NCBI GenBank assembly: GCA_963969365.1
Contig: OZ017751.1
Location: 2,480,001-2,544,000, forward strand
Source: Asterochloris sp. CNOR1
Lineage: Eukaryota; Chlorophyta; Trebouxiophyceae; Trebouxiales; Trebouxiaceae
Reading direction: 5' to 3'
DNA length: 64,000 nt
Position numbers and translations under genes: made by a program. The notes beneath the pieces were generated by a model that worked only from the letters and a program-made list of their open reading frames with translations, was not told the origin of the DNA and did no database searches. Shown here piece by piece: positions 801-44,000 of this stretch (positions are counted from its first letter, which is position 1; every line of letters begins with the position of its first letter).

Positions 801-3800
801 ATGAGCACCCTTTTGGCCCCTGCAGCCTTCGTTTCTCCCCAGGCTCTGGTCTTCCCGCCACGGCAGCGCAGCCATATCCGTGACTCCTGGACCACATTGA
901 TGCGCTGGTCCAGGGGGTTCCGCCGCAGTATGGATGACTCTGGAGGGTGAGGCTGCACTGCGTTCATGCGCAGGCAGGCCTTGTCGCATCTTGATGCTGT
1001 CCTTGTGACCTTGTCGAGGGACACATGCTGTCTACAGCGTCTCTGAAGTATTGCTTCAGTGCCTGTAGACGAGTGCTGAGATCGCTTTCCATGTTGGGCT
1101 GCTCTTGCCTCCTACAACAATTTCTGACCACCACTGCAGCACCAATGGGGCCTTGGCCAGCAGCCCCAGTCACTGCAGGATGCCGCACCGCTGCTCTCTG
1201 AATGAGTATTCCGTGTCCTGCTGCAGCACGGTGCTGGAGCGCACAGACAAGGTGGTCGTCTTTGGGGGCGGGTCTTTCGGGACAGCCATGGCTGCTGCCC
1301 TGGCCCGCCAGAGGCGGGAGCTGTCTGTGACGATGGTGCTGCGGGATGCCGCCATCTGCCACGACATCAACCAGCAGCACAAAAACACTCGGTACCTCAC
1401 GGTGAGGGGTGTTACAGCTTTGCTGAGCATTGCCCTGGTGGAAGGCCACAGCAGGCCTGAGCACTTGGGGCGTTCAAGATGGGCTTCTCTGGGACAGATA
1501 CTCAGGTCACAGGTGCTGCAGTATGCTGGCATAGCCCTGCTGCTGCTCTGAAGCAGGGCATTCTGGAGATGATTGCAGCGTCAGGGGATGGCTGCCTGGC
1601 AAGCCAAGGCAGCCTCTCTGCTGCCACCACAAGCCAGTGCCACAGTACTGGGTCACGCTATAAACAGTCTTCAAGACTGCTCATGGTGCCTGACCCAGGT
1701 GCTGGGCTGCTGTGCAGGACTTCAAGCTGCCCACCAACATCACTGCCACCACCAGCCTGGCAGATGCCATCCGGGGAGCCAGTTACGCCGTGCACGCGGT
1801 GCCAGTGCAGCACAGCCGCGAGTTCTTGACGCATGTGAAGGCGAGTGCAGCATTCTGACACGGTCTGTCAGATCTTCAGTGAATGGCTGCCTGGGGCGGA
1901 CCTGAATCGCTGCCTGTGTGGCCGATGTACGTACAGTGCAGCCGCAGAAGTAGCCTGCGTGAAAGGATGCCGCCTGTCTGTCAGCCCCGGGGCGCAGGCG
2001 GCAATTGAGGCCTGCCCACGCTACCCATGGAGGAGGTTGTGACCCACAACCTGCACATCACCCTGTCTCAGGCCTCACAGGTGGCCACTGGGGGATGCCC
2101 ACACTGCCCCTGCAGGAGCTGCTGCCCCATGATGTGCCCATCCTGTCGGTTAGCAAGGGCCTCGAGGTGGGCACCGGCAAGATGATGTCAGAGATCATCC
2201 CAGATGTGCTGGGGCGCAAGCACCCCTGCGCCTTCCTGTCGGGGCCCTCATTTGCCAAAGAGGTCATGAGCCTGCGCCCCACTGGCATCGTGGCAGCCTC
2301 CAAGGTGTGTGCAGGCAGCAGCAACATGTCTTGCCGCATGCTGCTTGCCTGCAGCGAGGCTGATATAGACCCCTCTGCACACGCCTGTCATGCTTGCCTG
2401 GCTCTTGTGCGCGAGCGTGGACAGAGCTTGCAGGACTGCCTGCCCCCCCCCCCCCCCCCCCCAAAGTTGTACCTAGTCTGAGTGGCTCCTCTGCAGAACA
2501 GGTCTTGTCCAAGAGTCACCACCCTGATTCTGTGTGCAACCCTCGTCTTTCTGACTCCGCCCCTGTACCAGTGGTGCAGCACCTGTTCCCCATCATCTTT
2601 GGCGTTTGCCATGCATGCTGGGCCGCTACCCTGGCCCCAAATGTTCTCAGGCGCACCAATGTGCTGCCCCCTGCAGCCGGCCTTGCCCCTGACCCTGTCA
2701 TGGTCCCCCTTCAGCTGCTTCCTGCGGTGCATATAGCTGGCGCGGGAGGTGGCAGCAGCTATGTGCTAGCCCCCTATGCAGACTCTGGCAGGCATGGCTG
2801 CACAGACCTTATCAACAGTGGAAGTTTCCCTTTAGAAAATGCTTTCGCCAGCTCTGCTGCTGGCTGCCTACGCAGGCTGTGGCATGCATGGCAGTACAGC
2901 CCCGAGTCTGCCAGGGTCCATGTTGGCCCCCTGCAACACATGCAGCTGGCAGCAGCTGTTCTGCTAGCCACCTGTGCAGTCTCTGACAGGCTCGCCCTGC
3001 ACAGTCCTTGTCGTCCCAGTGCCTTCGCCGGAGTCGCGCTGCGAAGTCCCCATGCAGGGCATGCAGCCGGCATGCAAGGTGCAGCAGCTGTCTAACAGCA
3101 CATGTGCCTCGCCCACATCTGACCTGGTTTCCCTGCAGGACATACAGCTGGCACGGGAGGTGCAGCAGCTGTTTGCTAGCCGCTTCATGCGCGTCAACAC
3201 CACCACAGATGTGACCGGGGTGGAGATCTGTGGCGCACTGAAAAACGTGCTGGCCATTGCTGCGGGCATTGTTGAGGGGCTCGACCTGGGTCACAACGCC
3301 ATGGCAGCTCTAGTCGCCCAGGTGAGCCACAGTGCAGCGGGCCTCTGGTGTGCAGCTTGCACCCGCCAGCCATAGGAGTGGCCCCTCTGCAGGCGTGCAG
3401 CCAGGCTCTGCCTCGTCTCCAGAGATGCAGGGTCTGAGTATGCTGCATCAGAGTGCTCAATGGCAGGCCTGCTTTCAGCTGCATCTCAGGGCCCCACATT
3501 CTGGGTGCAGGGCTGTGCAGAGATTCGCTGGCTGGCTGACAAGATGGGCGCCAAACCATCCACTGTCGCAGGCCTCTCTGGCTTAGGAGACATCATGCTT
3601 ACCTGCTATGGCAGCTTGTCGCGCAACAGGTGAGATGGGGGCCACTGGCTGAGAGCATGCAGCAGCAGTCTTGCCCAAGTCCGAGTGTCCCAGCACACCT
3701 CTTGAGCCTGATGTCTTCTGGTGCATGTCAACAGCCGCCGTAAGGCAGCTCAGTGCAGCTCAGTTGGTCTGCGCGTGGTCACAGGCAACTAGCATGCTCG

Positions 3801-11643: not shown

Positions 11644-11721
11644 TGGCTGGTCAGTCGATCTCAATTCAGCATGTCAGTCTTGCAAACTTTGACTTCCTGG
11701 GCATGGGAAGAAGTAAAGTGA

Positions 11722-15100: not shown

Positions 15101-15555
15101 GGCCTGCCAGCGCCCCCAGCACAGAGCGCCATGAGCGGCTCTTTGCGGAGAACTCAGACAGCACCGTGGCAACGTACAAGCAGATGCGCGGCTTCAGCGC
15201 AGCGTACACCACGCAACCTTACATCCAGCAGATCAGAGGCTACAGACTGCGCAAATCAATGGCCCATATCCGCTGCAGCAGCCACAGGCTGAGAGTTGAG
15301 ACAGGCCGCTACACATCAGAAGCCAGACACGAGAGGACCTGCCGCCTCTGCATATCAGCAACCGCCATAGAAGACGAGCAACACATCTTGCTGCACTGTC
15401 CCCAGCTCGATGACCTGCGCAACGCCCACAGCCACCTATTCAAGACGCCAGGACAGACTCTGACAGACCTCTTTGATGACCATCCCCCAATTTTGCTTGC
15501 TAAGTATGTGCGTGCAGCGCTGCTTATGCATCAATCAGTGCTGCTTTTGCCATGA
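12109..15555 (+). CDS. LINE endonuclease / reverse transcriptase polyprotein
   Basis: The protein nicks target DNA and primes reverse transcription of the element RNA. The frame is unbroken for about 1,148 codons. The first ATG (12154) lies inside the endonuclease motif VLWNMHGGL, so translation probably begins further upstream or by another mechanism. APE-type endonuclease motifs in order are LWNMHGG, CLTETW, WVCGDTNAHTG and CSDHLPVQV. Reverse-transcriptase motifs are KKGDKADLNNYRPI, AGFRANRGTSDQ, FVDFEKAFDTVD, GVQQGSPLSPLLFG and the catalytic YADD in LLYADDLAILS. A C-terminal zinc-binding segment follows (CRLCISATAIEDEQH...LHC). The intact frame suggests a young insertion. Confidence 0.95.
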   Translation, partial: EEGGHCVELSCVLWNMHGGLNHAYNKADALNDLHTLDCTFICLTETWTALGDAVYDLPGYVCHEVHRPQHLQNRNGPRGGIAVYMKQCVADHVKFWKAADDGTYIWLHIEPHGGCTEHIAFATCYMPPYYANKTLDTFRRLTADMDNFASRVPAGKQPHYWVCGDTNAHTGTAPDFIRLIGHGISSEVQALDQLPADLKTRANLCTHKVDVRGKQQLDFCKDNELLILNGRAPGDPSGKVSFVGRGAGTLIDYHMASAWLASCCMQLAVLDMASGACRVCSDHLPVQVCFQLPTTDGEPPAASAQQQPAAVPRVPDIRLDPSQTEVWHQNFAAVAERLRLQVAVTDPEAGVRAFTECISEAAADTFQLRRRQPLKIMQRPPWFDEECRYAWREWKDAERSPIIVPFAALKLRNMYRAVRRRKQRRFMHQRMADIDKLASKNMAHLYRVFGWRRHSACPRALHSQHAHWQSKLGGRPEPRGIPELLTEDCPGGPVPSAAALNAPITTREVYDSLQKLKGGKAAGLDGMPAELLKSGPFSMMECLASLFTAILHGRYPEQLSTGLITAVHKKGDKADLNNYRPITVIPVLAKLFASVLTRRLADWTERNNLRAPTQAGFRANRGTSDQLSILNYIVKKCLSQGKKLYCCFVDFEKAFDTVDREVLWAVLANIGVRGQFLKCLQSLYGVDSAAVRTAQGTSGAFRCFQGVQQGSPLSPLLFGLLLDCLHKVLKAVPGNGAPSLADYWFTAAGREWKMQKPVPLLLYADDLAILSTRAEGLQNMLDALQVFSKKRRLTVNLEKTEVLVFELRHTPCRDFTYGGRVLTRKDSFKYLGLWFHATQRDFRLALGSLAASACKAMHAMRRRCFQLGYVHPQRMCNLFNALVLPILSYGCEVWFWHHDASSTVTKVLEGVHLQFLRGLLGVKRTTHHLIALAEFGRYPLAVHWQKQVDKFRLRICNVTRTASDNPLFWAMFDGTPNVENLRLLRTPAGFAALQARGRPASAPSTERHERLFAENSDSTVATYKQMRGFSAAYTTQPYIQQIRGYRLRKSMAHIRCSSHRLRVETGRYTSEARHERTCRLCISATAIEDEQHILLHCPQLDDLRNAHSHLFKTPGQTLTDLFDDHPPILLAKYVRAALLMHQSVLLLP

Positions 15556-18700: not shown

Positions 18701-21700
18701 CGTGTGTCTGCGCAGTGCAGCACTTGCCTGTATACTTGTTACCAGGAGCTGCTGCACATGCTGGCTGTCTGCATCTGAAAGCCCTCACTACGTTTGAGGG
18801 AGGCAGTGCAGATCTCACTGTCATTGACGCATGCGCCAGCTGTCTGACTGAGGCAGGCTGACTTATGTGCTTGCTCTGCAGCCACGCAGTGTGGACGATG
18901 CTGTCCAGAACTTGCTGGGGAGGGGGGATGCCCTGCAGGCTGGCAGCACGCCTGCCAATCCCACTGCAGTCAACACCTCCTGGGAGAGCTTGTGGGGGTC
19001 CACCCCCTCATGGGTGACCAGTGGAGGTGAGCTGGCACTGCAGCCTGCACATTTGAGGCGTTTGTTCCCAGCACTCATGTTGCCAGAGGTTCGACAACTC
19101 CTGGCGCTTCTTTGAGAGCTATCTGCCGAGCCGTGCTGAGCTCTCGGCTTGTCTTGTGCCGAGCTGCTGCCTCTGCGCTGCCTGCTGCTGCTTGCACTTC
19201 TCAGTCACCGGTGTCCTGCCCCAGCTGCCCCTGTTCCCCCTCCACTCCGTCAAAGGTGCACTGCAGGAGGCCCGATGCACACTGTGGGCAGGGTGCATGT
19301 GCACAGCATGACGGGCGATCTGGTCCTGCACTGGCTGCCAACGCCCAAGTGGGACGCAGTCACCGGCGTCCCCTTCAGCAAGCTGGCCCCACAGGACTCT
19401 GCGTCTGCTGAGCAGCTGCTCAGCGTGTCGGTTCTGAAGGCGGTGGAGACGGGCAGGCCAGCTCAGGGCTTGGGGACCACAGCCTGCTCGCAACTTCACA
19501 CCCCGCTGGAGTTCTGGTCAGGAGAGGGCACCAGGTGTGCACGGTGCTGCCTGCATGGGGCCTTGACACCGCACTTGCGCTGAGGCCTAGGCGACAAGAT
19601 ATCCACAGTGCTGCCTGCACAGGATGTTGTCCGCTTCATGCTGCACACCTTGCTGGAGTTGCTGGGCTGCAGACAACACTGCTTGTGCCCAAAGCTGCCT
19701 GGAAAGGGGTAGGGCCTCACCCTGCTCACACATGTACACTTGCCGGAGTCCTGGTCAGCCATGGGCACCAGGTGTGCTGCCAGAGAGCCCAGTACAGGAG
19801 CGCACTTCCAGGAGGCTCCAGCAGGCTGCAGAGCAGCTTGCCCTACACAATGTGCCCAGTCACAACAATACCTAGTCATGTTCACGCAGCCTGCTCCACA
19901 GGAGGGGCTGCCTGGCCCGGCTGCAGCTTGACTCGTCCTTGCAGATTCCAGACTGCCCCTCACATGGACACAAACCCCTGGCCTGCCTGCAGCTACAGCA
20001 GGCGCCTGACGTTTCCCAGGCAGGTCCACCTGCTGGACAATGGCAGCTTGTCAGCCTACAGCCTGCTGTCAGGCAGGACGGCACAGGTGGCGCCGCTGCC
20101 CGCCAGCAACGTAGCTGGGCAGGAGCAGATCCCTGTCGGCCTGGTACACAGCCCAAAACAGTCTGCGTGGCTGGTGTTCTACCAGGTGCAGGCCTCTGCT
20201 GCCGACAGGAAGGGGCAGCCTGCAGGGGCGGGGGGCTGGACCCTCGTCACGCAGGCCTCCCTGGCCAGTGCAGCTGCGCTCGCTTGGACGCTGCCAGGTC
20301 AGCAGTGCCTTGCACTGCAGCCCGGCCTGGGCCAGCACACTTGATCAGCCGTGGCTGCTGGGTTTGCGCACTGCATTCTGCTAGCCGCTTGCTTGACCGT
20401 GGCATGCGATGCAGCATTCCAGCTGGCAGGCAGGCCACATGCGGTCTGCCTCACGGCGCGCTCACCAGTGTCAGCTGGCTGTTACAGCATTTGCTTACCC
20501 CTTGTGGAGGGTAAGGCTCTGGCTCTGAATGTGCACAGCAGCTCAAGGTATGAGAACTCTGACTTCCACTGCGTCAGTCCCGTCTGCTATCATGTCACAC
20601 TGCACCAGATGTCCGTCGTTGCTCATGGGGGTTAAGCATACCCTTGCCCATGGTTGTGCTCATCGCCTCAATGACCAGTGGAACTTCTGGTGCACCAGGC
20701 CTTCTGCAATATCAGGGGCGCGCAGGACAGCAGCTGCTGGGCAAGTGCTGCAGCAGGGATGGCACATCTTTTTTCAGGAGTCTGCTGCAGCAAACACTGC
20801 AGCGCACCCAGCACGCTCTGCATGCTGCCAGAATCTGAGTCTCAAGGCATGTGTCTGGGCATGCAGGGCAGGCAGGGACGTTTGTGGGGCCACAAGAGCA
20901 GTACCTGTGTATCCTGAACAACGACAGCACCTCCCTGAGCCTCTACAACGCCTCTAAGACGGGTGCCAAGTCTTTGCCGATGTACAGCATTGACCTGCCG
21001 GGGACTGGGGCAGCCACAGTGCACCCGGGACCCTTCTTCCAGCTCCCGCCCAGGTCAGCGCAGGACATGCGCATCTGCAGAGGGGACTCTGGCAGGGCTG
21101 AAGCTGCTTAATGCACCCACTGCAGCAAGACAGAAGGTCATCTGCACAGTGGCCAGCGCTCTGGAGGCCTCCAAGGATCGTGCTGGGACCTCTGCCCTAC
21201 CGCTACTCCATCTATGCAACTACTGCCTGCAGCGGGAACTCTCTGGCAGATGGCAGCACCACCCCCTTGGAGGCCTACAATGCAGCCGTTGTCTGGGCCA
21301 CTCCTGGTGGCAGCCTGGCTCTGGCCGACATGCCTGGCACGGGAGGAGGCTACTATGGCGGCGGGGGCGGGGGCAAGCGCAAGGGATGGCTGGCCCCTAA
21401 GTACGTGCTGCAGCTCCTGCCAGGGGAGGCCGTGCTGCAGGTGCGAGTTGCTTTGGCACACAGAAGCATGTGCAGCAGCTTCCTGCCGGGGGAGGCCGGG
21501 CTGCACTCAGCTTTACTTTTGCAGGCTTAGTGGGGGAGGGGGGTTGGGTGTGCACACCAGAAATGAGCATATTGCACAAACAGGTGGCAGCAGCTGCAGG
21601 CACCTCACTGCTGTGCAACAGGCTCACACAGAGAATGCCATCCTGCCAATTTGCTGGTGTGATGCCAAGCGTCCACAACCGACATGCTCTGCACCTCCAA

Positions 21701-24700: not shown

Positions 24701-27700
24701 CAGCTTGAGACTCCATCAGGGCAGCCGGTGTCTGCACCTGCTGTGCCACAAGCGAAGTACGCGCCATGTGTTGAGGGTAAGAAACTCAAGGTGCTGGGCT
24801 CGCCCTAGACAATGCAAAGGTTCACACTCTGACACTCAACTCACAATGCCGGTGCTCAGCATTGTGTGCAACATGTGCAGGAGGGCAGGGAGATCAAGGT
24901 GCTGGCTGAGGAGCTGACAGCTCTGGAGAGCAAATTCCGCAGCGTCAACCCCATGGGAGGCACGCGCCTGCTGGGGGACTGGACTGTGCGCATAGATGGA
25001 GGCCCGGGCAGGTGGGCGCCTGCTCCTGCGTGCTGTCAGCAGCTGATCGCATGTCTGGCTCTGCTGAGCTGGCCCAGGGAGGGGCACAGCTGCTTTTGCG
25101 CAGTGTTGGCAACGGAGCGCTTTCATAGCTCAGCTGAGACGGCCCAGGCAGGGCAGCGGCATTTGCGTGCTGTCGGCAGCTGAGCGGGTGCCTAGCCCAG
25201 CTGAGTTGGCCCAGGCAGGTGGTCAGGCAGACAAGCCTGTCATTGGCTGCGTACCGTGGCTGAGCAGGCCTGAATGCCTCGGGCGCTGTGGGCAGCAGGA
25301 GTGAAGCAGTGTTCACCCTTGACGTTCTCATGTCACAGCTCTGCTGGTAGCGCACAAATGGATGGGTGCCATCGTGACAGTCCTTATGCAGTGGCATATA
25401 TGCTCCCAAACAGACAGGGTTTTGACTCTTCCTGGACACCATGCAGGGCAGACTACCCCGACGACGAGCCTCTGGAGCTGGCCCCGCCGGGGGCAGTCCC
25501 CCTGATGGAGACAGGTGCCCCCGCAGGGGCAGCGCCAGGCACCAGGGATGAGCTCACAGGCACCATCACACAGCTGGACGCTGCAGTGGTAGAGGTAAGA
25601 GTGATACTATCACCTGCTCTCGGCTGCCATGCTTGGTGACTGCCATAGCAGGCGAGGTGAGCATGACGAATGCCCTCTTATGGCAGCAACACGCTGCAGT
25701 ATTTGATGCCTCCCAGCCGGCAGCTGGGTGCATTAAGGCTCATCCCTTTCGTCCAAAATGTGAGATTGCCCCTCATTTGAAACCCCCTGGCGCCTCACTC
25801 AAACCTGCCAGCAAGACATGCTACACAACCTCAAGCAGCTCTGCTGCTTGCTCATGAACTGCTGAGACTACCGTATCTGGGGTCCAGCGCAGCCTGCTAC
25901 CCTGCTGCAGTCCTACATGGGACTGGGCACCGGCGGCCGCGGGGCAGTCATGCGTCGCACTGCAGATGAGGGGCAGGGAGATGATGATGAGGGCAGCTTC
26001 CATCTGGGGGGACCTGGGGCTCCAGGCAGGCTTTGCTCATGCGTCAATGCATCCTGTGGCCGTGGCCAGCTGGCATTGTGGCACTTTGCTGCAGTAGGCC
26101 TTTGCTCATGCGTCAATGCATCCTGTGGCCGTGGCCAGCTGGCATTGTGGCACTTTGCTGCAGTAGGCCTGGAGACCATGTGCAGCTGTGAGTGGTCAGC
26201 CCCTTTCGCAGGGTCCCCACTTTTCTAGCTTGATGCCACACCTTTCAAGGGCCAGGTGTGTGCCTGGTGGAGGAACACGCACATGTGTGCCACGACATGC
26301 GGGCCAAGCTAATCCCCTCACACTGTGCAAAACAGCTGAATGGGTGCCTGCCGTCGAGCAAGCAGATACATGGAGCGACAGCAGGGTGCCCACAGTCAGG
26401 ACAGCTGCACAAGCTGCTGCGCGGGCAGCCTCTTTCAAGCAGACACATGGTGCTGGCGGGCTCTGCATGCAGCGTGAGAAGGTGAAGGTGTGACCTGTCT
26501 CTGCAGGCGAGCAAGCAGATGCTTGGAGTGACGACGGGGGTGACGGTGGGGCGCCCACAACTGAGACAGCTGCACAGGCTGCTGCGCGGGCGGCCTTTGC
26601 AGAGGAGAAGGGTGGAGACGCCTTCTACAGCAGCGACGACGAGAGCGAGGGGCACAGCAGTGCCACCGGCAGCCTTGTAAGCGGCAGCGCTGCCTCCCTC
26701 ACAGAGCCCAACAAACGCTTCAAGGTCATCATCAAGGTGAGCTCGGAGAGGCAGCTGAACTGAAGCTGCAGTGACGCCTGCAGTGTGTGCTGCGAAAGAC
26801 TGACAGCTTGCCTGAAAGCTCGCCCCATGCGGAGCATGAATGGGGGCAGGACAGCCCCCACTCCTGGCCCCCATCTGCTTCAGCTGCTTTTAGCCTGCTT
26901 GAGGCCAGTGTATCATGATCACCAATCTCCATGCTGCAGCTGCTGCTTTGTGGGACTGTTGATGATTGTGCTGCCCAGCAGAGCAAGGAGGAGATGGCAG
27001 CGCCAGGTCCAGCATTGCAGTGGGCCCCCTGCACGCTGCAGCCACTGCCTGTTTCCAACCCTCCTGCCCTGCAGAGTCAGGAGGAGATGGTAGCATCAGG
27101 GTCCAACCCTGACTGCGCTGCAGCTATGCTCTGCATGCCTCCCCTCTCTCCTGCTATGCAGAGCAAGGCCAAAATGGCAGCAATCTAGGCTCTGTCAACC
27201 TCGGTCTAATGTCCAGGCCCAGTCCCATCCTGCTGTCCTGCAGAACATATAAGAAGATGGCCCCATCTGTCTTACACTGACCAGGGCACCCTTCTTGCCC
27301 TGCAGAGCAAGGAGGAGATGGCAGCATCAGGGGCCAACCCTGACCTGCGATCGGCCACCCGCGGGCTGCAGCTGCTGTCCCCGGGGGCACTCAGCCCGGC
27401 AGGCGGCTCCCTTCGCGGCTTCCAGCTCCCAGGGGCAGACGCCCGCCAGGCCAAGTTCCGCAGCAGTGACAGCTTCTCGGAGCGGGGGCCTACGCCGGTG
27501 AGAGCTCCTGTCCTGCCATCCTGCATGTCTGGGTGCCAGTGAGGGCACCTGCTGGATCTGTTGGTCATACGCAAGGCAGACCAAGCTGTCATAGCACCAG
27601 GCGTAGCTCGTCTGAGCTTAGTGTGGGGAGCAAGTACTGGCGCTTCTGCAGAAAGGGCCCTGCATCTGTGAGTCCTGCCAGCTGCCACAGCCCAGCAGTT

Positions 27701-30535
27701 TGCTCACTGCACCTGGCCCTCCCCTGCTCTGGGCCAGTGCAGGAAAACTTGCTTTGGGTTCTGGCCTGCGCCGTCTGGCTGAGCATGCCGGCAATCACGG
27801 TAGACACAAGCACACATTGGCAAGTTGAAGCCCATTTGATGCAAGCAGGCCACTAAGGTGGCAATACCGCTGCAGGACCGGTCTCCCTTGGCGTCCCCGC
27901 TGCAGTCCCCTTCCCCGAGCATGAAGGGGCTGCCCATGCGCGCATCAGGCTCTGTGCCCTCAGGGCTTGGCCCCAACAGCTCGGGCAGCTTGGGAGGCCC
28001 GCCACCCGCTGCGCCCACAGGTATGCTGCTGGCGCCTTTACTGCCTGAGTGCTTCAACCCTGCAAGTACGCAGCGTGTTGCGCTAGTGGCGCTACTGTAC
28101 ACAGAAGACGTAGGCGTGGCTGCACCACTTCTAGGAGCCTTGTCAGCCCTGTGAGGGTGCAGCATGTGGTACAAGGGCGCTGCTGGCCTCTTGCCATCTC
28201 TGTAGACCTCTGCAGACCTTCTTGCCTCAAACGCCTAATGCCTGACAGTCTGCCTGGGATCCGGCGCCTGGCTGACTGCAGGTGCCTGCCTGGCACCTGA
28301 GGCTGCTGAGCAGCGTGCCACTTTACACCACCACTCAAGTCATGCATGCTGCGCTGCAGGCGGAGCTGGCAGCTGGGCAGCCTTTCCACCACCGGCAGGG
28401 CCCTCCGCTCCAAGCTCCTCCCCAGGTGTGTGCCCTCACAGGCTGTGTTTGCGCTCTTGCAGGCACTGCCACCTGTAAACAAGCACTCCTGACATGCACC
28501 TTGCGCTGGGCTAAGCCGTTTGACTGCTCCACCCTTGGGGCGGCAGGGGTGGTTGAGGGGCAAGGCTGGTGCCCTTGCAGCTCATGTCTGCACTGTCAGG
28601 CACAAAGACTATGCACAGAGTGCGCAGAGGGCAACACCAGTGCAGGAGCTCTGCAGGGTCTCCTGGCGGCCTGCAAATTGTGGTGGGGCAGCACTGACCC
28701 TGTCCGGGCAGCACTGACCACGCCTGATGCCAGCACCAGCCTCAGGGGCCCAAGGCTGTCTGCCTCAAGTTGCCAACCCTGGCCTCCTGCTCTTTAGGTC
28801 AGCCTATGAGGCCGCCAACAGCCCCAGTTCTACAGCTTGGGGGCCAGCTGAGCCCGCCCATGGGGGCATCACACACCCGGGGGGTGGGCTTAATGGAGGC
28901 AGGCAACTGGGACGGCGCAGTCAAGGAGTTCAGCAAAGCCCTGGACAATGCACAGGGAGCCGCCTGCAAAAAGGAGGCGCAGTACCTGGCGGCTGTTAAG
29001 CTACTGAAGGTGGATGACCTGTCTTGCTTGCTGGTGCTGAGGCATGCTTTGCAGTGAGTGAAAGGGGGGCTAAAAAATGCAGTGGGCTGCACAAGGGGGC
29101 CTCAGTACGTGAGTGCTGGTCTCCTGGCGGCCCCTGCTGTGTGAGCACGTTGGCTGCAACAGCGGCGCTGTTGTTGGAAATCCTGCACCAAGGGTTACTG
29201 GCCACAGACCCAAGCGCTCAGACATTGGCTTCGGATCAGTGGGTTCAAAGGGGGTTTCGAAGTTCCAAGTTCATGTCACAGCCCCAATTTGTGGGCAGGC
29301 CTGCACGTCAATGCTGCATTGTCCCACCTGCTGGTTGCCAACACCCAGCCAGCATCTAAGCAGCTTGGCTGACTGTGGAGCTCCACTGCAGCTACCAAGC
29401 AAGCAGTTCCCTGCCCTGCAGGCTGCTGCCAGCACAGCTGCATGAAGCAGCCTGTGTGTGCTGATATGCACCTCTCTGCCTTGCAGGCTGCTGCCACCCA
29501 GTCAGCGCCCAGGGCAGCACGGCTGAAGCGCTACGCGGCAGCACTGAAGCTCGATCAGAAGCACCACACTGCACTGGTGCAGAGCGCGGTCGCTCACAAT
29601 ATGGAGGTCGGCAACTTTGGGTGAGTTCCCCACTGCTGGATCCGGTCTCCACAGCAAGGCAGGCAAGACCATGCAGCCTGCGCAATGGCTTCAGTGTGGG
29701 TCTTGCCACAATTGCTGCAAAGGTCTGGCAGAGGAGGTCCTGGGATACCTTCTACTCCCTGCCTTACGGTGCTAGGCCTAAGCATAGAGCCCCAGTCTGG
29801 CAGCCCTCAGGGGCAGCATCTCTAGCTCCGCTGATTTCGGCAGTTGCAACCCATCCCGTGTCCACTGCTGGGCAGGGTGCTGAGCAGAGGCTGCATAGTA
29901 TGTCCAAGTGTGTGCCCCGCCTGTAGCAGGCTGCATACTGATTCCTGCTTTGGGCCACGCTGCAGGGAGGCTGCTTGTGATCTCCCAATGTGTGCCCCTG
30001 GTGGAGCAGCTGACTCAGCTGGTGACTGCCCTCACACACAGCGTTGGCAAGCAGTGGCTCCATGGCATGTCAATGTGCGTGCCCGGCTGCAGGTATGCTG
30101 TGGAGCAGCTGACGTGGCTGGTGACCCAGCTGGCCAGCTCAGGCAACCCTGCCTTCCTGGCACAGCTGCAGAAGAACATCGAACTGTGCGACCAGAAGAG
30201 CGGCAGCAACAGCAGCGTGCCGCGCGACGAGGACGTCAAGGCCTTTGCAGACATCATCGACATTGCGCAGGTGCAGCTTGCTGCATGCTGTGCTGCACCT
30301 GCAACGAGAGGAATGCAGGGCAGGGTGCAAAGGCACATGGGGCGCAGGCAGGCCACCAGCACCTTCTCTGATAATGCCCTGTGTGCTGCCCTGGTGTGCA
30401 TGTGCCGCCACTAGTGCCCTGGACTGCAGCAGCTCTGCTGCTGTCACAAACTCATATCTTTGGGACCAATGCAACCCCTGGATGCAGGATGCCGATGATG
30501 TCGAGGGCAGTGTTGGGCCTGTTTTGCAAGGCTGA
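15705..30535 (+). CDS. TSET/TPLATE complex beta-propeller subunit (TTRAY / TWD40 type)
   Basis: TWD40/TTRAY proteins are coat-like subunits of the TSET complex, which acts at the plasma membrane in endocytosis. The match is to the plant TWD40 proteins along the whole length. The N-terminal propeller includes TVAEFDLVSGCKLSS, GCSTGSLAVFEAVGR and FVGPQEQYLCILNNDSTSLS. The second propeller includes VVTSQRVLLVSPELR, SAVWVGPALLFANAA and MAQRFVGLLQPLLMG. A helical solenoid follows, then an acidic linker (FYSSDDESEG) and a C-terminal helical domain (AVKEFSKALDNAQ, NMEVGNFGYAVEQLTWLV). Exons I could place include 15705-15722, 15840-15917, 16003-16131, 17347-about 17430, 17873-18008, 18275-18347, 18455-18568, 18882-19026, 20020-20297, 21924-22139, 22656-22872, 24164-24359, 24881-25011, 26507-26736, 27306-27497, 27876-28020, 28798-29009, 29487-29620, 30093-30270 and 30488-30535. 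The model is incomplete near 16140-17340 and 19030-20000. One exon appears to need a 1-nt frame correction near 17387. Confidence 0.85.
19498..19790 (+). repeat. direct repeats around 19498-19555 and 19735-19790
   Basis: Two segments share the order GGAGT, CTGGTCAG and GGGCACCAGGTGTGC with few mismatches. A third partial copy (CACACCTTGCTGGAGT) lies between them at about 19645. They sit in a part of the TSET gene where I could not settle the exons, so some may be coding. Confidence 0.65.
21462..21511 (+). repeat. copy of an exon 3' edge downstream of its donor
   Basis: The exon ending at 21440 closes with CTGCAGCTCCTGCCAGGGGA, then GGCCGTGCTGCAG and the donor GTGCGAG. About 25 bases into the intron, CAGCTTCCTGCCGGGGGAGG, then CCGGGCTGCAC, repeats it with several substitutions. 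This is a donor-side copy, mirroring the acceptor-side copies seen elsewhere. Confidence 0.7.
25011..25230 (+). repeat. three imperfect tandem repeats in a TSET-gene intron
   Basis: Segments of roughly 70-80 bases repeat the order 'GCTGAG, GGCCCAGG, GGGCA, TTTGCG, GT(T/G)GGCA'. Copies lie at about 25025-25070, 25065-25140 and 25135-25220, following the donor at 25011. They are diverged and contain no open exon. Confidence 0.6.
26031..26168 (+). repeat. exact 69-bp tandem duplication (two copies)
   Basis: Positions 26031-26099 and 26100-26168 appear identical, starting CTTTGCTCATGCGTCAATGC and ending CTGCAGTAGGC. The unit is a multiple of three, so the frame stays open through both copies. 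Each copy carries an acceptor-like TTTGCTGCAG/TA. Perfect identity means the duplication is recent. It lies between conserved TSET exons; whether it is translated is unclear. Confidence 0.95.
26353..26440 (+). repeat. decayed copy of the 26507 exon start
   Basis: GAGCAAGCAGATACATGGAG, followed by a run matching CAGCTGCACAAGCTGCTGCG, mirrors the start of the true exon (GAGCAAGCAGATGCTTGGAG, then CAGCTGCACAGGCTGCTGCG) about 155 bases upstream of it. The copy has indels that break the frame. Confidence 0.85.
26971..27266 (+). repeat. array of four decayed copies of the 27306 exon edge
   Basis: The true acceptor and exon start at 27301 reads TGCAGAGCAAGGAGGAGATG. Copies of acceptor plus exon start precede it with cag ending at about 26980 (CAGAGCAAGGAGGAGATGGC), 27074 (CAGAGTCAGGAGGAGATGGT, continuing with GCATCAGGGTCCAACCCTGA), 27162 (CAGAGCAAGGCCAAAATGGC) and 27246 (CAGAACATATAAGAAGATGG). 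Spacing is roughly 60-95 bases, and the copies differ in how far they have diverged. Confidence 0.9.
29960..30085 (+). repeat. decayed copies of the 30093 exon edge
   Basis: The true exon begins after GTGCCCGGCTGCAG with a run containing GTGGAGCAGCTGACGTGGCT. Upstream, at about 29985-30030, CAATGTGTGCCCCTGGTGGA continues as GCAGCTGACTCAGCTGGTGA. A weaker trace of the acceptor part is at about 29900 (AAGTGTGTGCCCCGCCTG). Confidence 0.75.
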
Positions 30536-31004: not shown

Positions 31005-34000
31005 ATGGACACAGAAGTCCCCTCAACATCGGAAGTGATGGCACTGAGCCAGAGCATGTCTAGGCACTGGGAAACTCAGAAGGTGGCCAGCGCATTTGTC
31101 CTGAGAGGTGGGCTTTGTCAGTCACAACATCCAGCGCTTGCTAATCATGCAGTTGCAAATGGTTCGTCATGGGCAGCCCCCCTTTCTGCAATCCCCTAGG
31201 TTGATCGCTCACTGCTTGGTCATGATCAGCCAGACGCTGCTGAGCGTTCGCACTCTGCCTCACCATGTCGCTCTCAGACTGCCAGCCCCTCTCAGCTAAG
31301 ACGACTTACACCATGAGCCTGCCAGCATCAACACATGACCACCAGCACCTCTTGCGCCAAGGTCAGGAACCATTGGAGTTGAGGCAGCCAGCGATCAGCT
31401 CACAGAGACAAAGCTGCCTGCAACATGCCATTTGCGTGCCTCCCTTTGCCTGCAGCACTGTTGTTGTGATGTGTCAACTGCCACAAGCTGCGCATGGCCC
31501 CTGGCTGACTGCAGCGCTGCCAAATCGCCTCCTGCGGCATGGGGCCAGGTCTGTAGACTTCGCACTCAAGCAGCAGACTGGCCTCACAGAGACATGTGCT
31601 CATCCCTGGCCCTGAAGGTGCACGAAAGTCAGAGGAGCTGTACTGTGAGGAGAGTCCAACACAGAAAGACAGCAGCGTGCTCAGTGTGTTCAAGTCTCTT
31701 TTCTGGCAAGTCCCTCGCCATGAGGCGGGGCCCGCATCTTGAGTCCCTGTTGCTGGCGACCTCGCAGCATCACATCTTGAGGCAGCACTCAGCACTCAGC
31801 AGTGCTTTGACCTGCGCCTGAGGCTGATGCCTGGAGCAAAGTTCCCAGCGCAGTACAATGCACTTGGCAGCACAAGCTAGAGCCCTGGTCAACTGACTCT
31901 GCATTTTCTCTCTCACTCAAGTCTGCTGCAGCAATCACACGTTCAGCAGGTGAGGCACCCCCTGTGGCGCCTGCAGGGAAGGAGGCAGCGGCGTGGATGC
32001 GTTTCTCACAGCTGCAGCTGCCCAGGCACGTCTGTGGGGCAGCAAGCACCTGCCTTGGTGCACACACGCTGCAGGGCTAGCCAGCAGGTTGCTGCAATCC
32101 TGGGTCCCCAAACAAGCACTAGCCGACCCCTTACTGCCTGCAAGCACCTGCATCATGTAGTCAAAGAGTTCCTGCCCTGCTTCATGCATGCTGCACAGCC
32201 AGCCACACGCTGCAAGAGGGCACAGCTGCCTGCACTGGTGAAGGCTTCTGCAGAAGCAGCCAGCCAGGTGTGAACAGCTGTTGCTGTTCAAGCCGAGGTG
32301 GGCACCTTCCAGCAGAGGCAGCCTGCTTCCAGAGGGTGAAGTGCAGCCATGTAGCTTTGAGCCTCAGCAGTGTCAGCAGGAAAGGGTTTTGCTGCCTTTG
32401 CTGCTCCTTTGATGTGCCAGCTAGAGTCAGATGTTCAAAATTCAAAGTGTACGGTTGCACTGCCACTCTGCAAGCAGGCACAGCTTTGTTGGCAGGCAGC
32501 GCTGGCCAGCCAGGTGGTCACAACCAGGTGGCTGAGCCTCCACAGCTGCACATCTGCACTCCTATCTCTTCCAGCAGGCAGCTTCTGCCTCAGCTGCAGG
32601 GCCTGGCCAATGGGGCTTGAGTCAGGTGGCTGAGCCCTCATCGATGTCATGCAGGTGGGCCAGATCATCCTGCTGCTGCCCAACACAATGGCACAGACAG
32701 GGCTGCTGGCGGGGGTGGTGCTACAGGTAGAGTCATACCTTCCTGCAGCTGATGAGAATGAAGTCATCCAGCCTCTCCTCTAAGCAGGAAGGCAGGCCTT
32801 TCCAGAATGCGCATCTTGCGTCAGTCAGCGCCAGACAGTGAAGACAGTGCTCACACTGGGCCCTTTTGCCTGCACCCCCTCAGAGCGTGCTGCACGCTGC
32901 ACATGAGGGGGTGTGTGCGTGTGCCGCAGGTGGTGTGCGCCTCCCTGGCCCTGCACACGCTGTACCTGCTGACGGTGCTGTACCTGGAGTTCCATCAGCG
33001 CAAGAAGCGCTGGCGCCAGAGCCTGCACCACGGCATGCTGATGGTGAGGCCAGGTCATTTTCTTTACGCGTGGGGCGCCTGGAGGCTCTCAGGGTCACCA
33101 GGCTGCACAACAGAGCTGTAGGCAGGCCGGTGGACAGGGGAGCGTCCAGCGTCGGGGCCTGCAGCATGGCATGCTCAGATGGGATGCATGCTGAATGCAG
33201 ACCCAGTGATGCTTGAGCCCAGGCCTCGCACAGAGGGCTGCTCTGGGGGGCAGCAGGGCCTGCATGAGCCAGCCACCTGCTCCAGGAGGCACTGTGGGCT
33301 GCGGGCTCTAGAGCCTCTACCTCAGCGCATGCTCATGTTCAGGGCCGCACTGGTCGTTTCCAAGGCAGCCATCTGCGTAGGCAGGCACTGCAGAGGCAGC
33401 TGTCGCCTGTGCACAAACCGCAATGGCGTCAGCAGCGGTGGGGCAAGAGCCTAAATCTTGGCATGCTCAAGGTGAGCGCCGGCAGTACAAGCACACCAAC
33501 TGCCTGAATGGCAGTGTGAGTTCTGGTACCATTGGACAGAGAGGCTGGCGCTGGAGCCTGCAGTACTGTATGCTTCTGGAGAGGCTGCATCACCCATGCA
33601 TCATATAGCAATCTGGCTGCCAGGGAACTGTTGCCGTCAGTAGGCTGGGCACGTTATAGCACGGTAGGAATGGGAGTTGCCAAATAGAGAGAGGGCATCT
33701 CAAACCACAGCTGCCCCCAATCTTGAAAAGCACTACACGTCACAACATCGTGCCTACCAGCAGCTGAGCCCTACCATACCCAGCTGTTTGTTATTGCTAG
33801 GCGTAAACAAGACAACAAAGGCAGGGCTAGCAGCTGCTCCTGATTGCCCCGCCACGTCAGCAGTGCAGCATGCTGCCAGCTGCAGATATCGTCCGGCTCA
33901 GCTGCACAGTGTCGCTCAGCTGCTTGTGCTGGGTGGCAGGGTTCGTCGGGTTCTTTCTGCTCTTCTGCAAGCTGTTTGCTTCCCTGAAGAGTCCGCCGGC

Positions 34001-37000
34001 TTGGTGATCTGAGCCTGGTGGCTGTATGTGTGCAAGAAATGAGCAGATCAGCCCCCGAGGGGCAGCCCCCATTCCCACCAAGCAAGCTGACAGTGCGGCA
34101 GCAGCTGCGCTCAGGCTGCTATTTGCCTGCTGCAGGTGGCCCTAGGGTCACACATGGGCATTGAGAGGACACGCCAAGCTTCAGCCAGCTGAGGCAGGTC
34201 AGGACAGAAAGGCTCAGGAATTGATCTCCCCTGCATTGCACCCCACTTGCAGGCGACTGTATGGCATGCACAGCACCAGTGGACCAAAATAGATCTGAAG
34301 CCTGCAGGCTCCCGCTGGCTCCCTCTTCCTGCAGGTGACCCTGGCTGACATGTACAGCACGAAGGTTCACGGCATGCTTGCTCACCTGCTCAAGGCGCCG
34401 CCTCATCTTCCTGCAGGTGACCCTGGATGACATGAACAGCACCGGGTGGACCGACAAAGTGTACTGCATCCAGTACCACGAGCTCATCATGGAGCTGTGT
34501 GGGTGCTGGGCTGGCAACATCTCGCGCATCGTCAACGTGATGGCGCTGGTGGGCCTGGGTGTGGCCCAGGTCATTGCCTCCTCCAGCAACCTGCATGCGC
34601 TCAACGCGCGATTCTCAAAACGGTGATCACTGCAATGGAACTTCAAATCAAAAAGTTCGGTGCAGCCTGGGGCCCCTTGAGCTTGACAAGGTGCACCTGA
34701 GCATGGCTCATGCAGAAGTGCCCCTGACCGACGCCTGGCATGCGCTCACCGCCCGCTGGTGCACGTGAGGCTTTGATGCTTGGGCCGTCAAGGTGCATTG
34801 AATGGTGTGCTTGGCTGCTGAGCTGTAGAACACTGCCTACATCAACTAGCCTGATTCACCCGTTCCTCTTGGCACACCGAGATGAATGGCTCAGCGGTTC
34901 TGGAAAGAGCCCCTCAGTCAAGCCAGGTCCAATCTCATGTGCCCTGCAGGGACTACTCCCTCATGTTTGGTGGTGGCGCCCTGCTGGTTTCCTTTGTGCC
35001 CTCCTTCCGCAACATGCGCATCCTGTCCATGGTTGCCATTCTGGGCACAACCTACACCAGCTGGTGAGCAGCCGCGCTGTGCAGGGCACTGCTGGCAGCA
35101 GTGCTCTGCACAGGAGCTGCAAGCACATTCACACCTGTCCTCGAAGTGCCCCAGAGCAGCTGAGCAGTAGGGGCATGCCTGACACTTTCCAAGGGCTCCA
35201 CCTGCGACTGCATGGCATAGGTCACACACAGCAAGCATGTGCTTGATGCCAGGCCCTAACTAGCAGCACCATGCTGCAGAGGGTGGGCACCTTCTGGCAT
35301 GATGCACCTGCAGTGCCACTGCTGCTCGCTCCCAGGAAGCCTGCAGCCCTGACAGGCTCTGCACGCGTCTGAGCGCAGCTTTTGGGTAGACAGAGCAGCC
35401 GCAGGGTTTGCATCTCGGCACCAGCCAGCCAAGTAGTCTTGCCAGGCAGCATGTCCTGAGAGCTCTTGCTGTGTCTGAATGGGTGGTGAATGTGCCACCT
35501 GCTGCCTACCAGGTACATGCTGGCCTTTGCCAAGGCCAACAAGGGCACTGGACAGGCCACCCTGGTGGCTGAGTTGTCCACAGTGCCCCAGCTGCGCCAG
35601 GCAGCTGCTGCCACAGCCACCATTCTCTTCACCTATGGTGGCCACGCCATGCTAGTGTGAGTGCTGCACTTTTCCCGCCAGAACAATGCACCTCTGCGCA
35701 TGTAAATGCTGTAGCGCTCCGCCCACAGCCTCCCTGGCAGCTGCTGGAAATGCAAGTGCTGCAGTGGCATGGTGATCCTCAACTAGAAGACGACCAACAA
35801 CAAGCTGCAGCTCAATGATCAGCTGCAATGCCAGTGCTGTACACCTCTGCCAGGTAGTTTGCAGGAGCTCCATGTGCAGATCATGGTTGAGATAGCACTG
35901 GATGTACATCCGCTGCGTCAAGGGGAACATTGACATGCTAAGGGACACCTTCCACTGGCTGCAGCGAAGTGATGGACACAACAACTCGGCCAGACAAGTT
36001 CCACTGGTTCTTTCTGTGCAGGTGCGTTGCCGTGCATGGAATGTTGTAACACGCCTTCTGCCCAAGCTGGGCTGCTTTCTGCTTCAAGGTTCAGACTGAC
36101 ATGTTCTCATGCTCCTTGGCCCCCTTCTGCAGCTACCTTTATACATTCACACTGACCCTCCCAGACTCTGTCAGCATTTACGCTTCGTTCCCAGATGCAG
36201 CAGCAGCAACTGGTGAGGGTCTTTGCAGCCAGCATGCCTTGCAGCTCAACGCCTTGTCCGCTCAGCTGAACACATGTAGCCAGTGTGCCTTGCGCACAGT
36301 AGCTCAGTGCAGCGTTCTCACAGCCAATTGCCATCAGCCTGTGATTGCGGCGGCCCTGCATGCCTATCAGGTGACTTCAAGAGCATGCTTACAATACGTG
36401 CACCCTCTTTGTGCCAGGGAACGTATATGGCATCCTACCGCCGTCACACGCGAGGTCTGCCTCCATCATTCTCATGCTACTGCACCAGTGTGTGGCGTAC
36501 GGCATGTTCATCATGCCTGGTGAGATCTGTGTGGCTCAGAGCTGCAGCTCATGACGCTGTACCTGTCCTTTGTTGCAAAGTACCCCTTGTACAGGTAATA
36601 AAGGAGAGGGAGTCTTGCCTCAGTGCATTGTGTACAGCCTGCCCATCATGCCTGGGGAGTTTCGGTGGGCTGGCTCCAGGGCATGGCTCATTGGCAGCAG
36701 CGTGGGCTGCCAGGGCTGCCAGGTGCTTCTCCTAGGAGGTGCATGGGCGCAGCTGTCAGCATGGCCACATCAGTTGATGGCCAGGGCACAGCTCATGCTC
36801 GTGCAGCTGAGGCCCACGTCTCTGGCTGCAGTGCACCACATGTTTGAGAAATTGATCCGAACGCATGACAAGCCGGTGAGTGCATGCTATGCAGCCATGC
36901 TTGCTATGCAGCCATGCTTGCTGTCATCTCCCTGCCAGCCTCAGCCCCGCCATGCTGCCCCTGCAGATGTGGATCCGTTTATTTTCCCGACTGCCAGTGG

Positions 37001-37777: not shown

Positions 37778-38040
37778 TGCAGATCAAAGGCCCTCCCCTG
37801 AATCCCTGCATAACAGCTTGATGGCCTCCTACTGATGTCAAGGCCTTCAGCAGAGCATCAGGCAGCTGGTAGACATGGAGGCAGCCACGGCCGCACACAT
37901 CTTGTGCGAATTAGAAGCTTCCCTGCAGATGGACTCTTGCTTGGGTTCCGGAACTTTGAGTTGCTGCCTGGGCAGCCATGAATATGAGAATCCACAGAGC
38001 ATGCATTGAAATGAAATTTGACTAAACACGGTGCAAACAG

Positions 38041-40821: not shown

Positions 40822-41098
40822 GTCAGGTGCGAAGCCCTGATGAGGAGGCTCACGTGCTCCCGGGACACCGGAGGACTTGTGCTGGGCGTTCAGGCAAAGA
40901 CTTTGCAATATTTGACCAATGGTGTTTGCTTTCTATCGGCGTGCTTCATCACAGAGGAGTGTTTCACCCTTCTGTGAGCTGGCAGTGAAACCCTGAGACG
41001 CATTCATATAAGCCACGCAAATCTTGAGGACATCAAGTTTGAACCCAAGTCAGCACGAGGTTGCCCTGGCCCAGCCAGGAGATCAGCGTTGACAGGGC
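40822..41098. promoter_or_regulatory. bidirectional promoter region, CHZ1-like / ATG18
   Basis: Only 277 bases separate the two divergent start codons. A TATA-like CATATAAG lies at about 41005-41012, some 90 bases before the ATG18 start and properly oriented for it. No equivalent is evident for the minus-strand gene. Confidence 0.5.
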
Positions 41099-44000
41099 AT
41101 GCAGCACTCAGCCCTGCTGCACTACGGATTCAATCAGGACCATGGCTGCTTTGCCATAGGCACGTCCTCAGGTAAGCTCCCAGCCTGATACAGATGCATG
41201 CACGCTGTGCTTGCTGCACCTGACTCATGCTGCGCTCTGCAGGCTTTAGAGTGTACAATTGCGAGCCATTCAAAGAGACAGTGAGCTGCCCTCGCATGCA
41301 GTAATGGTGCTCAGCTTCCATTTGCCGGCAGGGATAGACTGCCCAGAACATGCTGCTGTGGCAGCGAGCTACCCTGGCACTTGCTGAGGCTGGCTCGCAT
41401 CCTGAGCCTGGCCCGTGCTGCAGTTTCGGCGGGAGTTCGAGAATGGAGGCATCGGCATTGTGGAGATGTTGTTTCGCTGCAATATCCTAGCCATTGTGGG
41501 GGGCGGCACGTCCCCCCAGTTCCCCATCAATAAGGCAAGGCACTAGATGCTTTGCTCCTCCACAAGGTGCTCTGCTCATTGTTCCCTGCACCTTCAGGGG
41601 AATCCCTGCTGCAAAAGCAGCGAGCTTGATGTTAGGGGCAGCAGCCAGTGACTGCATCAGGGTTGGGCAACATTGTCAGGGTTGGGCAACATTGTTAGGG
41701 TTGCAGCCGTGCCAATCGACTGCTCATTTGCAGCAGCAGTGTTGAGCAGGCTCTGCTGCCTGCAGGTCATGATTTGGGACGATCATCAGAAACGCTGCAT
41801 CGGGGAGCTTAGCTTCAGAAGTCAGGTGTGGCTGCCTGCTGCTGTGGTTCTGCTAGAGCAGCCCTGGACTCTAGCTGAACTCAGGCTCTGTGAAGACCAG
41901 CCCAAGGCCTGTGCACATGGTTGAAAACATCCAGCAGGCAGGCTGCAAGTGTACAGCACAGTGCAGTGGTGCTTGAGCCATCTGCTGAGCCAGCCCTTCG
42001 AGCAGGTACTGGCTGAGGCATCAGCTCGCCCTGCTGACCAGTTCTTGGCTGAGACTCCTTGCAGATCTCGGCTGCAGCTCCCTGCAGGGCGCTGGCTGCA
42101 CATCGTTGGGCGCATGCTGAGTGTTCATGGTGCAGCAGCTGCTGGCTGACCCAAGCTGGCATCACTGGCTTCCACTGCATTGCGATCTGCAGGATGCTGC
42201 GGCAGGTCAGGGACAAGCTGAAAGGCCAAATAGAGCCTGTCTGCCCACCAACTCTGGCTGCTGCCCATTGCAGTCAAGGTGCAGTGCAGGTCCACATCAA
42301 CCCTGTCAGTGTCAAGGCAAACTGCCCCCTGCAGCGCAGAGTATGTGATGGAGTTCCACAGCTGAGTCAGAGCACAAGGACGCTGTCACGATCAATACCA
42401 TACTCCTGCCTGGCTTCAGGTCAGAGCGGTGAAGCTGCGGCGTGACCGGATAGTGGTGGCGCTGGAGCACAAAGTGCTGATCTACAACTTTGCAGACCTG
42501 CGCCTGCTGCACTCCATTGAGACGCAGAGCAACCCTGCGGGGCTGCTCGCGCTGTCAGCAGCCGCAGAGCAGACGGTACTGGCCTGCCCAGGACTGCACA
42601 ACGGCCAGGTGGGTGTCACACAAGTGCAGGGCCCTCCCATCCAGCTCCTACGCAGCCCAAGCTATTAGAAGAGACTGGTGTTGGCCCGCCTGGGTTTCCA
42701 CAACTGCCAGGTGGGCTGCTAACGCAGGGCAACACAGCCCAGGGCACAGAGCAGGGGATGGGCACGCCAGGCTTCCTATAGAAGGGCGGCTTGTCACAAG
42801 CCACCTCCCAATATCTATCAATGAGCTCCTGTCCTTACTGCGCGAAGCATGTCCTGCTTCAAGAGCGCTGAGATGCAGCAGGCACTAAGAGGTGCCAGGC
42901 CAAGCATTCTGCCTGGACACTGCGGGCCTGGGCTCCCCAACCCCTGCCTGACCCAGCCTTGCCCTGCAGGGATTAAGCCACAACAGAGCATCAACATGAC
43001 TGCTGCAGGTGCAGGCTGCGGTTCCAACTTGAGTGCTGCATGCATCCTGCCCGCCAAGCCTCACCAAGCTAGCCCCCGTCCCGGCGGGAGACACCTGCAA
43101 CAACACACAGCCAGGAATGGTACAGGCACCGTGTACTATATGCAGCGCACTGACTTCGTCAGCTCACAGTTCTGCTCACTGCAAAATGTGCTGCAGGTGA
43201 CTGGCCCATGAAGGCACTGCGCACTCCCTGCCAGCCTCCTGCAAGCAGTACACAGACCGAAAGCTGCTGCAGGTGCGCGTTGAGCTGTATGATGTGCGGC
43301 GCACCAAGTTCATCCAGGCACACAGCTCCCCGCTGGTGTGCATGGCGCTATCATTGGATGGCAAGCTGCTTGCCACAGCCTCAGAGCGGGGCACGCTTGT
43401 GCGTATACACTCCACAGCAGACGCCTCCAAGCTGCAGGTGTGTGGCAATGCAAGCACAGGAACCCATGGCACTCTTCAGGTGCTCGTGCTGGGCTGACGT
43501 TGGGCAAATACATTACACGGCAGGGGCAGGTCTCGTGCCACCACTGGGCTCGCGCCTGGGTGGGCAACGGTCTGCTCTGCTGGGTGCTGCCTGGAGGGTT
43601 GCTGCCCGTTATATCACTGGCACAGCAGACGCCTCCCAGCAACAGCTGTGTGTCATCAGCTGTGCATATACTGCCCTGTGGGTGCTGGCTGTGCACAGAT
43701 GCTTTCGCTGAGCCACAGGCCCTGGGGTGGGGCATTCATGGCAGACGTCTTCAGGCACTGTTGCCAGGCTGCCAGCTTGCAATCCCCTCCTCCTGTTCTT
43801 CAGAACAGCACGGGCAGCATGACTGTCTTCCTGACAGCAGCAGGCCAGCACAGGCACCCGTTGCCTCTGTGCAGCACTCACTACCATCTACTGCGCTACA
43901 GGAGCTGCGGAGAGGGGCAGACCCTGCTCGGATCTTCAGCATCGCATTCTCACGTGGGGAGAGCCCCGACTTTGTGGCGGTCACCAGCGACAAGCACACA

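Follow-up and report, generated by a model that had tools for sequence, protein, structure and literature searches.

Why would an intron carry sequence resembling the exon that it adjoins? In the window (the whole 64,000-nt stretch of DNA analysed), a sequence-only reading had picked out ten exon edges with such copies, and had proposed that tandem duplication across splice junctions drives intron growth. We followed up both the observation and the proposed process, using exons and splice sites predicted by a gene model with 304 kb of the 56.4-Mb genome as its training sequence. The model received no input from the earlier claim, and it found exon edges at 10 of the 10 claimed positions. Homologous proteins continue across the junctions at 3139 (GPDH) and at 42608 (WIPI3/PROPPIN), the latter with a one-residue gap beside the junction.

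Exon-edge copies in adjoining introns

Each of the ten edges was compared with its own intron and with 289-290 non-adjacent exon edges as controls (Table 1). Nine outscored every control: the acceptor loci 3139, 26507, 27306, 30093, 34417 and, narrowly, 58308 on the minus strand, together with the donor loci 21440, 33043 and 43437. At the tenth, 42608, the 50-nt test was weak (score 26, reached by 3 of 289 controls), but a longer alignment scores 36 at an offset of 101.

The excess extends across the 304 kb. For 290 introns of 100-1200 nt, with flanking exons scoring above 8 (a filter passed by 369 of 603 predicted exons) and at least 50 nt long, the 50 nt of exon abutting each junction were SW-scored against the intron on that side. 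At SW of at least 36, 12 of 290 acceptor edges and 9 of 290 donor edges matched, versus 0.01 expected in each case from the exon edges of other genes. At the same threshold, there were no matches for non-adjacent edges of the same gene (0 of 2684 and 0 of 2684) or for reverse-complement exon edges against the adjoining intron (0 of 290 acceptor, 0 of 290 donor). Exon sequence lying 51-100 nt inside the edge matches too, less frequently (3 of 272 and 1 of 270). In a scan of 10,082 windows, direct matches at SW of at least 36 outnumbered inverted ones by 116 to 3. Copies of exon edges in adjoining introns are thus confirmed as a real observation.

The copies lie mostly in the half of the intron that touches the source edge: among 594 tests in 297 introns, near-half and far-half matches numbered 38 and 7 at scores of at least 28, and 21 and 1 at SW of at least 36. 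The assertion that they always do so was overstated, because of the seven exceptions.

Table 1. Source exons and intron copies in the window
Feature	Position	Strand	Remarks
GPDH exon	3139..3321	+	head is source of three intron copies
Copy of 3139 junction region (3132-3190)	2721..2779	+	
Further copies of 3139 exon head	3050-3091, and one starting near 2949	+	
Exon	19534 (tail)	+	absent from earlier list
Copy of 19465-19540 (tail of exon 19534)	19705..19777	+	
Second copy for exon tail 19534	near 19641	+	
Exon	21167..21440	+	tail copied downstream
Copy of exon tail 21399-21439	21464..21505	+	
Copy of 22652-22689 (head of exon 22656)	22543..22580	+	absent from earlier list
Copy of 24320-24398 (exon tail 24359 and donor)	24427..24504	+	absent from earlier list
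Exon	26507..26736	+	head copied upstream
Copy of 26501-26608	26348..26443	+	86% identity over 94 columns, 16 gap positions
Exon	27306..27497	+	head is final unit of tandem acceptor array
Strongest copy of 27306 array, from 27288-27349	27058..27117	+	92% identity; own TGCAG
Another copy in 27306 array	starts near 26982	+	
Two more copies in 27306 array	near 27163 and 27243	+	by eye only
Exon	30093..30270	+	head copied upstream
Copy of exon bases 30100-30125	30001..30026	+	
Exon	32930..33043	+	tail copied downstream
Copy of exon tail 33043	33544..33574	+	SW 32
Stretches resembling exon tail 33043	near 33145 and 33435	+	by eye only
Amino-acid transporter exon	34417..34622	+	CTGCAG/GTGACC at junction; head copied upstream
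Copy of 34406-34442 (acceptor and exon head)	34324..34360	+	95% identity
Weaker copies for exon 34417	near 34133 and 34250	+	by eye only
PROPPIN/WIPI-like exon	42420..42608	+	tail copied downstream
Copy of 42571-42613	42672..42715	+	weakest of ten
PROPPIN/WIPI-like exon	43273..43437	+	tail copied downstream
Copy of 43404-43447 (exon tail and donor)	43610..43655	+	
ANAPC5-like gene exon	58095..58308	-	acceptor edge at 58308
Copy of exon head 58308	58359..58386	-	SW 36 vs best control 35
Copy of exon bases 58221-58270 (exon 58095..58308)	58445..58494	-	82% identity

Geometry and decay of the copies

Matching windows were grouped into clusters, from which 4 repeats out of 96 and then 10 of 92 with offsets below 45 were removed. 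The 43 exon-intron clusters (offset at least 45, scan reach 460 nt) have a median offset of 116 nt (IQR 90-157), a short spacing between copies, but one that does not in itself demonstrate head-to-tail abutment for most clusters; one of the 43 (34324) is nested inside another, and some have an exon edge in common. The alignment extends to the exon edge in 34 of the 43, and takes in at least 6 intron bases in 26 and at least 12 in 14. Homology past the junction was significant in 11 of 41 matches (about 2 expected, p 4e-6), one of these being a 29-nt-period repeat, and went undetected in 30 of 41 in the anchored test. Junction-spanning tandem duplication, as earlier proposed, is therefore supported as regards direct copies that reach the edge and cross it in a subset, but the crossing itself is seen in a minority. 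For acceptor matches (n=18), identity in an ungapped profile, which left out 4 of the 41 matches, has dropped to null level 12-20 nt ahead of the junction. A simulated spanning model predicts 36-68% detectable on the acceptor side at t 0.20-0.25 versus an observed 27%; a fraction of the copies may therefore consist of exon sequence alone. Exon-only copying was first raised since mean intron-side identity equals the null; the anchored test and the simulations weakened it, and it may account for a subset.

Taken together, the copies are probably the decayed remains of small tandem duplications across exon-intron junctions, which would have lengthened existing introns. Such duplications, with offsets typically of 70-160 nt, would arise within gene bodies; for a unit lying across a splice junction, the outer of the two sites (last acceptor, first donor) would stay in use, leaving the mRNA unaltered and turning the inner splice site and exon-edge copy into intron sequence. 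Existing introns would grow in this way and new ones would not be created. Three elements of this reading are our inference: which site RNA splicing uses, whether the molecular route was slippage or unequal exchange, and how old the events are. The stranded copy would drift neutrally while selection held the exon copy, so that exon edges would serve as a fossil record, with intron-only counterparts fading sooner.

Two or more copies at SW of at least 26 are present in 10 of 41 loci, and copy-bearing introns are longer than others (median 516 vs 431 nt; 35 vs 203 introns, p 0.007). The suggestion that this process is a general driver of intron growth is weakly supported: the offsets of the 79 visible clusters add up to 5.5% of intron bases.

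Near-neutral decay of the stranded copies is evident: mismatches by codon position are 0.115/0.116/0.196, the pattern expected when one copy is constrained and the other free, with frameshifting gaps in 19 of 41 copies and in-frame stops in 3 of 41. Repeat-induced point mutation is expected to leave a strong C>T/G>A excess in copies; the per-base rates for the first two codon positions (C>T 0.053, G>A 0.069, T>C 0.077, A>G 0.041) show none, which rules out RIP-like mutation of the duplicates.

Edge-match scores fit about 0.2-0.25 substitutions per site, whereas the ratio of exon-intron to intron-intron clusters fits a t of 0.18 or less, and the event ages are therefore probably mixed. At identities of.9-1.0 versus.8-.9 we counted 5 versus 32 junction clusters and 3 versus 24 intron clusters, a near-absence of young duplications that runs against a steady process. 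It is conceivable, if rather doubtful, that an old wave of intron-lengthening tandem duplication, confined to introns rather than intergenic DNA or gene ends and possibly tied to transcription or splicing, has now nearly stopped and left a datable record in exon edges.

Possible junction targeting and other explanations

Does the process seek out junctions? Intron-only and exon-intron duplications form 36 and 43 clusters, a ratio of 1.19. A model of uniform placement, in which the exon copy is constrained and the outer site is kept every time, gives 0.7-1.4 up to t=0.18 but 6-7.5 at t 0.22-0.26, so the two age readings disagree. If the outer site were kept only half the time, the expected ratio would halve and junctions would be in excess.

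We consider it unlikely that a junction-specific process, for example a splicing- or RNA-coupled one, copies exon edges into the touching intron and that generic duplication is insufficient. Edge windows do match more often than intron-internal ones at SW of at least 32 (26 of 476 vs 20 of 1854, p 6e-8, the internal pairs being counted from both sides and thus non-independent); this excess was dropped as proof of junction-specificity, since a simulated constrained exon copy alone yields a large edge excess for old events. Intron tail windows, where both copies are noncoding, likewise match more often than the interior at SW of at least 28 (11 of 199 vs 21 of 927), but intron head windows show no excess (4 of 199). 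Stop and start codon edges match less often than junction edges (1 of 86 vs 36 of 476, p 0.03) and intergenic clusters number 0 versus 5.8 expected (p 0.003), both in favour of junction-specific copying, as is the failure to detect homology past the junction in 30 of 41 matches. Against it, 11 of 41 matches do cross, and uniform placement is compatible with the cluster ratio at values of t up to 0.18. Because intron-only duplications are nearly as common and exon constraint prolongs visibility, uniform duplication, with the constrained copy visible for longer, makes a junction-seeking process unnecessary for these data, though a modest one may operate.

It is very improbable that the copies still code, as alternative or mutually exclusive exons: an AG or GT near the matching position is retained in 11 of 20 and 14 of 21 (background 34% and 25%), but the broken reading frames described above speak against it, as does unconstrained change at the first two codon positions of the copies.

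The Rogers model, in which new introns arise by tandem duplication of an AGGT-bearing exon, might be suggested by CAG/GT on both sides at some junctions. It would, however, leave copies of exon heads where the intron begins and copies of exon tails where it ends, the opposite of what is found (far-half 1 of 594, near-half 21 of 594 at SW of at least 36), and its probability here is slight in the extreme.

End-joining templated insertions copy flanking DNA in both orientations, and fit poorly with the lack of inverted exon-edge copies noted above. Chance matching through the strong TGC/GCA word bias of the genome (TGCA at 4.4 times expectation, CTGCAG 257 times in 64 kb) is ruled out by the same-genome non-adjacent and inverted controls and has practically no probability.

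Relation to known routes of intron change

Repetitive intron sequence is known from green algae as introner elements, whose near-identical copies are dispersed genome-wide. The loci here likewise hold repetitive sequence within introns, but a genome search with three arrays (skipping very common words) returned self matches only, which rules out a dispersed element for those three. Evidence for transposon-free intron growth is difficult to obtain, as copies under no selection erode. Should exon edges preserve one half of every event in readable form, duplication-driven intron growth would become countable and datable wherever a genome has been annotated, with the near-side signature distinguishing the lengthening of old introns from the gain of new ones.

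Intron gain through tandem genomic duplication goes back to Rogers 1989, Gao & Lynch 2009 and Hellsten et al. 2011, as cited in passages of PMC4974935 and PMC3443670. As those passages describe it, Rogers-type gain shares with the tandem duplication proposed here an intragenic event and a protein kept intact by splicing; there a new intron forms between duplicated AGGT sites, whereas here an existing intron would be lengthened, with the copy on the near side. Lehmann et al. 2010 (PMC2891723) treat intron sliding and tandem duplication in Drosophila at novel intron positions, a similar case in that exon sequence is duplicated and one copy then intronized; here the similarity persists without a demonstrated change of position. 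In the potato RdRp gene, the account by Ma, Lan, Niu 2016 (PMC4974935) has a new intron and extra exonic sequence, whereas here the inner copy would be skipped; that case concerns one gene, against 41 matches in 290 introns here.

Sample, composition and gene models

The window (C6:2480001-2544000) belongs to a 56.4 Mb genome in 21 contigs which is nearer in size, GC content and intron richness to Asterochloris glomerata (56 Mb, GC 56-62%, 9 introns per gene; PMC6652019) than to Trebouxia sp. A48 (69 Mb, GC 49.7%; PMC12712428). TGCA, GCAG and CTGC words are extremely abundant in the genome and therefore required a careful null; within the window, TGCA is over-represented 4.4-fold. Genes were predicted with a self-trained hidden Markov gene finder, trained without use of the exon-copy claim, on 304 kb, or some 0.5% of the genome, made up of the window, 100 kb adjoining, 100 kb of contig C1 and 40 kb of contig C2. 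This yielded 603 predicted exons, 369 of which passed the score filter, with predicted splice consensus CAG|GTGAG and CTGCAG|G. Junctions 3139 and 42608 are backed by homologues, and fusion is plain in some of the predicted genes. By Pfam name, the window holds GPDH, amidase, LSD1 zinc finger, amino-acid transporter, PROPPIN, P450 and ANAPC5 genes. Across the 304 kb (window and segments L002-L025), CpG is strongly depleted (0.33 in introns, 0.49 in exons, 0.32 in intergenic DNA) alongside a TG/CA excess, which suggests cytosine methylation and decay.

Positions of individual features in and near the window
Feature	Position	Strand	Description
20-C run	window 2443-2462		in an intron of the GPDH gene
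LINE-type element	window 12325-15507	+	RVT_1 reverse transcriptase domain in a long single open frame, after amidase exons
Diverged tandem array	window 25027-25219		units about 67 bp, intronic, just past predicted exon end 25011
Perfect 69-bp tandem copy	window 26031-26170	+	two units, in frame (23 residues), within a predicted exon
Successive copy units	exon edge at window 27306		each unit exon head plus TGCAG acceptor (by eye)
Six-match intron (L011)	C6:2475557-2476240		before exon edge 2476241; six matches (SW at least 26) to the downstream exon head, the maximum among 41 hits

Exon-edge copies in touching introns

The pattern of exon copies is real and statistically strong. At a match score (SW) of at least 36, introns matched their own adjacent edge in 12 of 290 cases on the acceptor side and 9 of 290 on the donor side, against 0.01 expected per side from other genes' edges, which bears out the excess proposed in the sequence-only reading. 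Inverted own edges gave no such match on either side in the 290 introns, nor did non-adjacent edges of either class from the same gene (0 of 2684 each). Exon sequence lying 51-100 nt inside the edge matched as well, though less often (3/272 and 1/270). Nine of the ten loci originally listed outscore all 289-290 control edges, that at 58308 by one point only, while 42608 is equalled or beaten by 3 of 289. The claim that copies always lie on the side touching their edge holds as a preference, with near and far intron halves carrying 38 vs 7 matches at SW of at least 28, and 21 vs 1 at 36 or more (297 introns). Of 41 matches at the lower threshold (20 acceptor, 21 donor), 10 loci contain at least two copies at SW of at least 26, a level reached by 0.7% of unrelated pairs.

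The copies decay like free sequence: mismatch between exon and intron copy was 0.115, 0.116 and 0.196 by codon position, with frameshifting gaps in 19 of 41 copies and in-frame stops in 3 of 41. A RIP-like mutation spectrum was looked for in the copies and not seen.

Probable junction-spanning duplication and its placement

A scan for local direct duplications within 460 nt found 43 exon-intron and 36 intron-intron clusters with an offset of at least 45 nt. In the exon-intron clusters (median offset 116 nt), the alignment reached the exon edge in 34 of 43 and took in at least 6 intron bases in 26 and at least 12 in 14. Homology past the junction was significant in 11 of 41 hits (6/20 and 5/21; p 4e-6 against 5%), as expected of the junction-spanning duplication first proposed, although this 27% lies between simulated acceptor-side spanning duplications (36-68% at divergence 0.20-0.25, varying with indel rate) and simulated exon-only copies (3-7%). 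Speaking against such homology, the ungapped acceptor profile (18 hits) reached the null level by 12-20 nt before the junction; the donor profile (19 hits) remained somewhat over null. Spanning duplication could account for most or all copies, and a subset may be exon-only.

Edge windows exceeded intron-internal ones at SW of at least 32 (26/476 vs 20/1854, p 6e-8, the windows being not fully independent), but old events stay visible longer at edges because the exon copy is constrained. Simulated edge-to-internal ratios stayed at 0.7-1.0 as long as t (substitutions per site) did not exceed 0.1 and climbed to 2.5-10 when it reached 0.2; the observed ratios are about 3-9. Under uniform placement with the outer splice site always kept, the exon-intron to intron-intron cluster ratio is predicted to be 0.7-0.9 for t no greater than 0.14, rising to 1.4 at 0.18 and to 6-7.5 at 0.22-0.26. 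The observed 1.19 falls within the range predicted for t up to 0.18, and there is no need to invoke a mechanism that seeks out junctions. This test is not sharp, since the expected ratio halves if the outer site is kept half the time, and since edge scores (t 0.2-0.25) and cluster ratio (t up to 0.18) give discordant ages. A pull towards something intron- or junction-specific comes, in small samples throughout, from intron tail windows, which exceeded the interior at SW of at least 28 (11/199 vs 21/927) whereas head windows did not (4/199), from stop/start codon edges (1/86, or 1/45 in confident exons, vs 36/476 junctions; p 0.03) and from intergenic DNA, with no cluster in the 304 kb against 5.8 expected (p 0.003 without edge correction).

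Known systems and age

The likely mechanism is plain and of a known kind, and the outcome is little described. Tandem duplication is an established intron source (Rogers model, reviewed in PMC3443670), and a potato gene has a duplicated intron-exon structure (PMC4974935); in the parts consulted, both concern gain of new introns, whereas the exon relics here would represent lengthening of existing ones. We found no account of such lengthening with near-side relics in searches of an open-licence library, which does not prove absence.

The interest of the pattern lies in its prevalence and age profile. Clusters with identity.9-1.0 vs.8-.9 numbered 5 vs 32 (exon-intron) and 3 vs 24 (intron-intron), where a constant rate should fill both bins about equally; an old wave, or copies diverged from birth, would account for the few young duplications. 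The perfect 69-bp tandem copy shows that the process has not ceased altogether; no other cluster longer than 30 nt in the 304 kb scan exceeds an identity of 0.95.
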